Positions 38,907 to 40,577 of a stretch of DNA of 40,577 nucleotides are shown here, piece after piece. A program made the translations under genes and the position numbers. Source of the DNA: Calditrichota bacterium (GTDB lineage: Bacteria; Zhuqueibacterota; JdFR-76; BMS3Abin05); the NCBI GenBank assembly GCA_013151735.1, contig JAADHR010000055.1, positions 1-40,577 of the forward strand. Reading direction: 5' to 3'. The notes below the pieces were generated by a model. The model was not told the DNA's origin. It did no database searches and saw only the letters and a program-made list of their open reading frames with translations. Every line of letters starts with the position of its first letter. The first letter of the stretch is position 1.

Positions 38907-38968
38907 AAGTTTAAATGGCTCTTTCCGTGAAGGAAACATTGGTTCCGGGAAGAGAAGCGAAGGACCAA

Positions 38969-39020
38969 GCGCCCCTAGCTTGCATGGCAGAGCAATCCGC
39001 CTGAGGCGGATAGGTTCAAG
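38969..39020 (+). pseudogene. Truncated tRNA-Lys-like pseudogene with a palindromic anticodon arm
   Basis: Aligns without gaps to the 5' two-thirds of the tRNA-Lys(CUU) gene at 39034: GCGCCC, TAGCT and GGCAGAGCAA are at identical spacing, and TAGGTTCAAG follows the anticodon arm. The anticodon arm is replaced by the palindrome ATCCGCCTGAGGCGGAT (38995-39011). The T-loop, T-stem 3' half and acceptor 3' half are missing, so it cannot fold as a tRNA. Confidence 0.8.
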
Positions 39021-39033
39021 GGGGGAAACAGAA

Positions 39034-39106
39034 GCGCCCATAGCTCAATTGGCAGAGCAACGGACTCTTAATCCGTAGGTTCAAGGTTCGATTCCTTGTG
39101 GGCGCA
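39034..39106 (+). tRNA. tRNA-Lys (anticodon CUU)
   Basis: 73 nt. Acceptor GCGCCCA / TGGGCGC, D-arm GCTC/GAGC, anticodon stem ACGGA / TCCGT with loop CTCTTAA, T-arm CAAGG-TTCGATT-CCTTG, discriminator A, no encoded CCA. Its 3' part (from 39076) is the start of the 163-bp direct repeat. Confidence 0.96.
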
Positions 39107-39238
39107 CAAGGAAGAAGCGGAGGCTTCCCCCAAAAGGGAAGCCTTTTTCTGTTTTAGGAGGAAACAATGGACGAGGGATCCTATTGGGTGTACGTGTTGG
39201 AATTGGGTAATGGTCGGAGGTATGTGGGACAGACGAAC
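39076..39238 (+). repeat. 163-bp direct repeat, copy 1 (tRNA 3' end + terminator + GIY-YIG 5' end)
   Basis: Differs from copy 2 (39434-39596) at only 2 of 163 positions. It spans the tRNA-Lys(CUU) variable and T-arms and acceptor 3' strand, the terminator hairpin and the first 24 codons of the GIY-YIG gene. The repeat period is 358 bp. Confidence 0.93.
39121..39148 (+). terminator. Terminator after tRNA-Lys(CUU)
   Basis: Perfect 9-bp stem AGGCTTCCC / GGGAAGCCT with a 6-nt loop, followed by a T-run. It lies between the tRNA and the GIY-YIG ribosome site. Confidence 0.92.
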
Positions 39239-39427
39239 AATCTGGAGCGGCGGTTGGCGGAGCATCGTTCAGGGCGGAGCCGGTTTACGCGGAAGTACGA
39301 GGTGGTGAGGGTGTTGTACCGTGAGGAATGCGGGAGTCGGTCAGAGGCCTTGAAGCGGGAGAAGTTTTTGAAGAGTGGAAAAGGTCGGGAGTGGTTAAAG
39401 GTTCGCTTGGCAGAGCAATCCGCCTGA
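39167..39427 (+). CDS. Single-domain GIY-YIG endonuclease (UPF0213/YhbQ-like)
   Basis: Codes for 86 aa with AGGAGG before the ATG. GIY-YIG enzymes cut DNA. The signature appears as WVYVLELGNGRRYVGQT (VYV...YVG in place of GIY...YIG), followed by the conserved Arg in NLERRLAEH and the catalytic-type Glu in ALKREKFLKSGKGREWL. The last codons, LAEQSA and the TGA stop, lie within the tRNA-derived fragment at 39407-39464. It sits in a tandem repeat unit with tRNA sequence on both sides, which suggests a small mobile or recombining module. Confidence 0.88.
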   Translation: MDEGSYWVYVLELGNGRRYVGQTNNLERRLAEHRSGRSRFTRKYEVVRVLYREECGSRSEALKREKFLKSGKGREWLKVRLAEQSA

Positions 39428-39464
39428 GGCGGATAGGTTCAAGGTTCGATTCCTTGTGGGCGCA
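39407..39464 (+). pseudogene. 3' tRNA-Lys fragment with palindromic anticodon arm
   Basis: 58 nt, the same length as positions 39049-39106 of tRNA-Lys(CUU), from TTGGCAGAGCAA to the discriminator base. The 17-nt anticodon arm is replaced by ATCCGCCTGAGGCGGAT (39418-39434); the T-arm and acceptor 3' strand are intact. The 5' part of the tRNA is missing and replaced by GIY-YIG coding sequence. Confidence 0.85.
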
Positions 39465-39596
39465 CAAGGAAGAAGCGGAGGCTTCCCCCAAAAGGGAAGC
39501 CTCTTTCTGTTTTGGGAGGAAACAATGGACGAGGGATCCTATTGGGTGTACGTGTTGGAATTGGGTAATGGTCGGAGGTATGTGGGACAGACGAAC
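39434..39596 (+). repeat. 163-bp direct repeat, copy 2
   Basis: Second copy of 39076-39238 with 2 mismatches, both in the spacer after the terminator stem. Identity stops abruptly after ACAGACGAAC, where unrelated AT-rich sequence begins. Confidence 0.93.
39479..39508 (+). terminator. Second copy of the AGGCTTCCC terminator hairpin
   Basis: Same 9-bp stem and 6-nt loop as at 39121; the T-run is interrupted by one C, so termination may be weaker. Confidence 0.75.
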
Positions 39597-39654: not shown

Positions 39655-39683
39655 TTGACAAGTACCTAACAAATCTTTATAAT
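39655..39683 (+). promoter_or_regulatory. Perfect consensus promoter of the riboswitch transcript
   Basis: TTGACA (39655-39660), exactly 17 bp, TATAAT (39678-39683). Transcription would start near 39690, giving a leader of about 345 nt before the next start codon. Confidence 0.88.
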
Positions 39684-39810
39684 AAGATAACGAATTTCCT
39701 CTTCTATCAGGGTTTGGGTTAATTTTCCTCCGATTTCAACATTTACGTCTACAACAGTGTATTTTTTCAATTTTTTAAATAGAATTCCATCGTTTGTCTT
39801 CTTTAGAAAC

Positions 39811-39972
39811 GATAAAGGCACACCCAGAGAAATCTGGGGCCGCAAAGCCACGGATCCAACTCAAGCGACCGAGGCGGCATTCGGAATGGGGAAGATGGGG
39901 ATGATTAGGCGCGGATAGATTCCAGGACGCCATCTGAAAAGAACTTGACAGGACAGCCGGGTTACCGAAATC
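39811..39972 (+). promoter_or_regulatory. Class I cyclic-di-GMP riboswitch aptamer (GEMM-I), with extended P3
   Basis: Matches the GEMM-I plan in order. AAAGGCACACC (39814-39824) leads into a 6-bp hairpin capped by a GAAA tetraloop (39823-39838). Then comes the hallmark GCAAAGCC (39842-39849), and a P3 stem made of TCC/GGA and TCAAG/CTTGA around an AAC/CA internal loop, the expected tetraloop-receptor place. The conserved AGCCGGGTTACCG (39955-39967) closes it. The base of P1 looks weak (G-C pairs plus a C-A mismatch). The P3 tip carries a 78-nt extension (39866-39943). A 7-bp hairpin ATCGTTT/AAACGAT (39789-39813) lies just upstream. Confidence 0.85.
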
Positions 39973-40005
39973 CAATTGGTGGAGTGTAGGTAACCCGGCT
40001 TTTTT
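39955..40005 (+). terminator. Riboswitch expression-platform terminator
   Basis: Perfect 12-bp stem AGCCGGGTTACC (39955-39966) / GGTAACCCGGCT (39989-40000), 22-nt loop, T6. Its left arm is the 3' strand of the aptamer, so aptamer folding and termination exclude each other. That predicts an ON switch: bound c-di-GMP prevents termination. Confidence 0.9.
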
Positions 40006-40036
40006 GTTTGGATTCACGCTATTATTGGAAAAATAG

Positions 40037-40577
40037 ATGAAAAAACGAAAAACGAAATTTTTTGCAGAAGTTCTTTTTTTACTATTTTGGATTATTCAAA
40101 TCAAATTAGCTGCCGCCAATACGTTAACGATAGCAGTTGGGAAACAGGGGGGCTATTATGAATTAGTAGGAGAGGCAATTCAAAAAATTATGCAGCGGGG
40201 AGAAAATCCTTTTAAAATCAGTTTGGTTTTTACGCAAGGAAGTCAGGAGAATCTCCGATTTTTGGAAGAAAGAAAAGTTGATCTGGCACTATGCGAAAGT
40301 AACCTGATTGAGTCGGAAACAAAGAAATTCGGGCGGCATATTTTTTCGGGGGTGTTGGCTATTGGTCAAGAGCCGATACAAATTGTGGTCAATAAAGAAC
40401 GAAATATATCCGGGATAGAAGGATTGGCTGGCAGACATGTGGCTATAGGAGAACGGCATGGCGCGGCAAGTTTTATTGGTAAAGAGCTGTTTAACTTATT
40501 GGAAATAAAAGATGTTGTTCTGGATACAACAATTAATGGAATGGATAAAGCATTCGCCTTAAAAAACGGAAAAGTAG
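40037..40577 (+). CDS. TAXI-family periplasmic solute receptor (partial, runs off the window)
   Basis: An open frame from the ATG at 40037 to the window end, 180 codons with no stop. A basic N-terminus and hydrophobic stretch (VLFLLFWIIQIKLAAA) form a signal peptide or anchor. The following TLTIAVGKQGGYYELVGEAI, the GSQENLRFLEERKVDLALCE segment and GIEGLAGRHVAIGERHGAA match TAXI-type TRAP solute-binding proteins. Full-length members have about 320 aa, so the 3' half is missing. A sensor protein with a TAXI-like periplasmic domain is an alternative. It lies directly behind the c-di-GMP riboswitch. No clear Shine-Dalgarno site is seen. Confidence 0.8.
   Translation, partial: MKKRKTKFFAEVLFLLFWIIQIKLAAANTLTIAVGKQGGYYELVGEAIQKIMQRGENPFKISLVFTQGSQENLRFLEERKVDLALCESNLIESETKKFGRHIFSGVLAIGQEPIQIVVNKERNISGIEGLAGRHVAIGERHGAASFIGKELFNLLEIKDVVLDTTINGMDKAFALKNGKV

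Follow-up and report, generated by a model that had tools for sequence, protein, structure and literature searches.

A c-di-GMP-I riboswitch with an extended P3 helix and predicted ON control in an uncultured KSB1 bacterium

The window analysed here is the whole of a 40,577-nucleotide stretch of DNA from a Calditrichota bacterium (GenBank assembly GCA_013151735.1, contig JAADHR010000055.1). Close to its 3' end it holds, all on the forward strand, a sigma-70-type promoter (39655-39683), an A+T-rich leader (39690-39806), a c-di-GMP-I (GEMM-I) riboswitch aptamer (39807-39969), an intrinsic terminator (39956-40005) and an open reading frame (40037-40576) that runs off the contig end, a truncation left unmentioned in an earlier, sequence-only reading of the region. 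The frame encodes the N-terminal 180 residues of a TAXI/NMT1-like solute-binding protein, as judged by matches to PF16868 (E 1.4e-14) and to the TAXI TRAP solute-binding family TIGR02122 (E 7e-17), the latter at 61 bits, below the 84-bit cut-off.

The perfect TTGACA-N17-TATAAT promoter pointed out in the sequence-only reading is indeed present: TTGACA (39655-39660) and TATAAT (39678-39683) are separated by a 17-nt spacer and match the consensus at 12/12 positions. Perfect TTGACA-N16-18-TATAAT sites occur four times in the whole 3.95-Mb genome, and a reversed-pattern control gave none; such rarity makes it unlikely that one was placed directly upstream of the aptamer by chance. The leader extends from a start site deduced from the promoter to the aptamer, and sequence and folding place in it a hairpin (ATCGTTT/AAACGAT) that shares bases with the 5' strand of P1. 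When the whole leader is folded thermodynamically, its pairing with an insert in P3, described below, is favoured over P3 itself; this leader-insert pairing was no better than in composition-matched shuffles.

The same reading had recognised a GEMM-I aptamer with a GAAA-capped hairpin, core and closing strand, and had asked for a search with the Rfam c-di-GMP-I model (RF01051). That search matched 39807-39969 with 64.1 bits (E 2e-10; gathering score 35 bits), the only c-di-GMP-I match in the 3.95-Mb genome, and each of the named parts is there. The core GCAAAGCC lies at 39842-39849 and the closing strand AGCCGGGTTACC at 39955-39966. The cmscan alignment, folding and residue mapping locate the P2 hairpin at 39823-39838, with its GAAA tetraloop at 39829-39832, and alignment and folding locate the 5' strand of P3, AGCCACGGATC, at 39846-39856. 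The 3' closing strand of P3 together with J3-1 (GACAGCCGGGTTACC, 39952-39966) contains the equivalent of C92 (39965) and doubles as the 5' arm of the terminator. P3 forms by pairing of 39846-39856 with 39952-39963, followed by TCAAG/CTTGA (39861-39865 / 39944-39948). The outer P1 helix, not reported earlier, has just 2 bp; its 5' side (C-G, 39810-39811) pairs with 39966-39967 and includes the equivalent of the G14-C93 apex pair, according to the sequence, an alignment to RF03167 and residue mapping. The aptamer fold forced on 39800-39972 is the minimum-energy structure of the same stretch, at no cost, with pair probabilities of about 0.59. When the searched stretch lacked the distal closing strand the best match to the clan fell to 37.5 bits, indicating that this strand is real, and a near closure returned by the genome search scored 40.3 bits against 64.1.

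The window aptamer shares with RF01051 the core sequence, the GAAA loop of P2, its receptor, the pocket residues and the P3 closing strand, but differs in its 2-bp P1 and in the P3 loop, where the covariance model has 4 nucleotides and skips 80. We regard it as a new RF01051 member with a variant architecture. Standard-size c-di-GMP-I aptamers have a short P3 terminal loop; here the loop is a 78-nt extension (39866-39943), which lies past the tetraloop receptor and has TCAAG/CTTGA as its closing pairs, as found both by cmscan and in the minimum-energy fold. The sequence-only reading had taken the element for an ordinary GEMM-I unit and overlooked this extension. In the crystallised Vc2 aptamer a U1A site was reportedly substituted for the P3 loop, which fits a tolerance of change at this place. 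The c-di-GMP-I-GGC variant (RF03167) resembles the window aptamer in its short P1 and flank context, yet membership was rejected because the score of 56.3 bits is below the gathering score of 59 and A47 is A in the window (39844), whereas the RF03167 consensus has G (CGCGAA).

Downstream, GCCGGGTTACC (39956-39966) is perfectly complementary to GGTAACCCGGC (39989-39999), giving an 11-bp stem that runs into TTTTTT (40000-40005), and in isolation this hairpin has a folding energy of -28.5 kcal/mol. The aptamer closing strand thus serves as the 5' arm of the terminator, with 39956-39966 used in both structures, and the earlier proposal of a terminator reusing this strand was borne out. Since the two pairings exclude one another, a P3 stabilised by ligand would prevent the terminator, which predicts ON control. 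RNA polymerase would start at around 39690 and produce a leader with the aptamer in it. In the absence of c-di-GMP, 39956-39966 would pair with 39989-39999 and transcription would end at the T-run; with c-di-GMP, 39956-39966 would be kept in P3 and the ligand pocket, no terminator would form and the TAXI-domain gene would be transcribed. We consider it very likely, from the sequence, that this stretch is a c-di-GMP-I riboswitch working as a transcriptional ON switch, and the RNA probably activates the gene of an exported protein in the presence of c-di-GMP.

To place the extension in context, we surveyed relatives of the aptamer. The named records of the window's relatives belong to candidate division KSB1, and c-di-GMP-I matches were found in 11 of the 82 genomes searched from this phylum. 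An extended P3, with 71-80 nt skipped, is present in four of these 11 (the window, L011, L012 and L013), the other seven being standard. Two of the standard members, L006 and L009, resemble OFF switches in having a terminator arm that complements the closing strand. Extensions similar to that of the window also occur in Omnitrophota, Elusimicrobia, Nitrospirae and others. When genome contigs of 84,980 species, one genome per species, were scanned for a pattern with a 76-106 nt gap in P3, 44 stretches were returned. They are heterogeneous: some have long simple hairpins or repeat-like inserts, others duplicated closing strands or a nested aptamer. Several of the 44 proved not to be such riboswitches (for example L030 from Bradyrhizobium, which lacks a GEMM-I 5' half) and do not enter the counts. 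The insert pattern was not found in viral contigs, nor were close DNA relatives found in plasmids or in 58 related genomes. Several aptamers (L023, L039, L080, L102, L035, L052 and L101) carry a duplicated closing strand, with the near copy closing a shorter aptamer and the far copy forming the 5' arm of a terminator; judging from this arrangement, they may follow OFF logic. Small MAG genomes (G082, G083, G086, G090 and G092) hold 8-19 c-di-GMP-I matches each, several with an extended P3.

The association between P3 length and expression platform was assessed with a fixed heuristic script on RF01051 matches from 22 genomes: those of the 11 KSB1 genomes, plus a sample drawn from 11 further ones. 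Aptamers spanning at least 108 nt were classed as extended and those of 107 nt or less as standard. A terminator built on the closing strand accompanied 16 of 24 extended-P3 aptamers but 6 of 51 standard ones (Fisher p 2.7e-6, uncorrected for relatedness), an association that may be biased by the choice of the 11 further genomes, which were picked for holding a pattern match. With the loci that led to the choice of genomes removed, the figures were 7/13 extended and 6/51 standard (p 0.0026, again uncorrected for relatedness), a result that the choice of genomes may likewise bias. This suggests a design rule in which a long P3 and an ON-type terminator co-occur.

An alternative is that a near closing strand within the extension, CCGAGGC (39869-39875), competes with the distal strand to give a three-state, decoy or OFF switch. 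CCGAGGC is complementary to GCCACGG, and closing strands are clearly duplicated in relatives that include Elusimicrobia and Omnitrophota (L023, L039, L048, L035 and L052). We nevertheless think such competition unlikely in the window and reject the near strand as a closure there, because complementarity of the insert to the P3 5' strand was not significant (p 0.27) and closures other than the distal one (37.5-40.3 bits) fell about 24 bits or more below it.

Slightly less likely still is that the insert derives from a decayed second aptamer, or is another domain with a ligand of its own. The idea draws on the similar lengths of the four KSB1 inserts and on eight loci, mostly from Bipolaricaulota (L018, L021, L026, L027, L040, L049, L053 and L056), in which a complete c-di-GMP-I aptamer forms the P3 insert of another. 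At these loci compensatory changes preserve the outer P1, P2 and P3 (54 pairs, 13 of them changed on both sides), and covariation backs both aptamers; where the downstream genes were read, the nested aptamers lie upstream of small exported proteins. The window insert, however, contains no credible Rfam match, its fold is not significant (z +0.87), and similarity among the KSB1 inserts is not significant either (best p 0.04 of six comparisons).

An insert that is neither significantly structured nor similar to other inserts leaves the platform association as the one argument for its proposed role. From that association we infer that the 78-nt extension acts as a spacer, which would slow or weaken closure of P3 in the ligand-free RNA and so keep the closing strand available to the local terminator, making termination the default. 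More broadly, we tentatively suggest that P3 extensions of about 20-80 nt are a recurrent c-di-GMP-I architecture in candidate phyla, one that may weaken or delay ligand-free P3 closure and, with the closing strand doubling as terminator arm, yield a clean ON switch; in the nested tandems of Bipolaricaulota this position in P3 would house a whole second aptamer.

With regard to the ligand, the genome encodes three GGEEF domains, all full-length and carrying the canonical Asp of the GD.VL motif; Hypr enzymes, which make cGAMP, differ from canonical GGDEF proteins by having Ser in place of Asp. The organism is therefore very likely to make c-di-GMP. Key residues for c-di-GMP recognition are G20, A47, A48 and C92 (PMC3764141), and the same work describes the C44-G83 pair, the G14-C93 apex pair with A95, and docking of the GAAA loop near C59/U60 and G79. 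Residue mapping found equivalents of G14, G20, C22, A23, A25, C44, G45, A47-A49, C59, G79, G83, C92, C93 and A95. In the alignment, G20, the position of specificity for c-di-GMP versus cGAMP, corresponds to G at 39817, and A47 and A48 of the ligand pocket to A at 39844 and 39845; C92 corresponds to C at 39965, set via the P1 apex pair because the crystal-construct sequence used for the mapping runs one position off the published numbering at that end. The GNRA loop of P2 is matched by a receptor in P3, where the equivalents of C59, A61, A62 and G79 are kept and U60 is C. A canonical pocket together with three ordinary GGEEF diguanylate cyclases makes c-di-GMP a likelier ligand than cGAMP, and we take c-di-GMP to be the likely ligand. 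Response to another cyclic dinucleotide such as 3',3'-cGAMP, as reported for GEMM-I variants in Geobacter (PMC8835794, PMC6274999), would leave the ON logic unchanged, but it is very unlikely given this pocket, the canonical Asp in all three strong GGDEF domains, and G at position 20, where G20A is the change examined for cGAMP binding (PMC6274999). Membership of the cGAMP riboswitches (GEMM-Ib), which needs A at that position, was rejected on the G at 39817. Most improbable of all is a decayed element without function: it occurs as a single copy and no c-di-GMP-I match was detected in the sole same-genus genome, but all pocket residues, a perfect terminator and a perfect promoter are retained.

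The predicted ON switch pinpoints a probable c-di-GMP-regulated gene in the uncultured lineage KSB1. Its closest homologues within the phylum are proteins of about 700 residues in which the solute-binding domain is joined to an RCK/TrkA_N channel-like part; the window gene, cut by the contig end after its 180 N-terminal residues, may or may not share this fusion. A pattern scan of genome contigs for proteins related to the truncated product gave none. L072 (1075-3210), L073 (1313-3634) and L074 (1189-3264) encode fusions in which a TAXI/NMT1-like periplasmic domain is combined with a membrane part and a Slo-like RCK/TrkA_N domain, resembling a ligand-gated ion channel. Where targets could be read in relatives of the riboswitch, they are exported proteins: L012 lies upstream of a secreted protein that bears a type IX-like sorting tail and L013 upstream of a 1663-residue exported protein containing FlgD_ig and FIMAH domains, while at L011 just a short signal-peptide-like frame was seen downstream by eye.

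Our search of the open-access literature found neither P3 extensions nor nested aptamers described, and no riboswitch papers on KSB1; it did find papers on tandem c-di-GMP-I riboswitches, and an earlier description is possible in subscription papers, which were outside the search. The tandems (PMC9481103) are of the same aptamer class, and more than one aptamer per leader is also found in the Bipolaricaulota relatives, but the window has a single aptamer and the Bipolaricaulota pair is nested, one within the P3 of the other, which would be an unusual natural architecture. The Bc1 c-di-GMP-I riboswitch (PMC11218506) has a long expression platform and, like the window element, exerts transcriptional control by intrinsic terminators; its additional length follows the aptamer, whereas that of the window is inside P3.

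Upstream of the promoter, the window contains a 163-nt direct repeat (39076-39238 and 39434-39596), the copies being 99% identical and 358 nt apart. In each copy the 3' half of tRNA-Lys(CTT) is accompanied by a terminator and by the beginning of a GIY-YIG open reading frame; the first of these frames (39167-39427) is intact and the second truncated. Adjoining tRNA-Lys are two degenerate tRNA-like stretches (38967-39021 and 39405-39444), in which a CCGCCTGAGGCGG palindrome takes the place of the anticodon arm.
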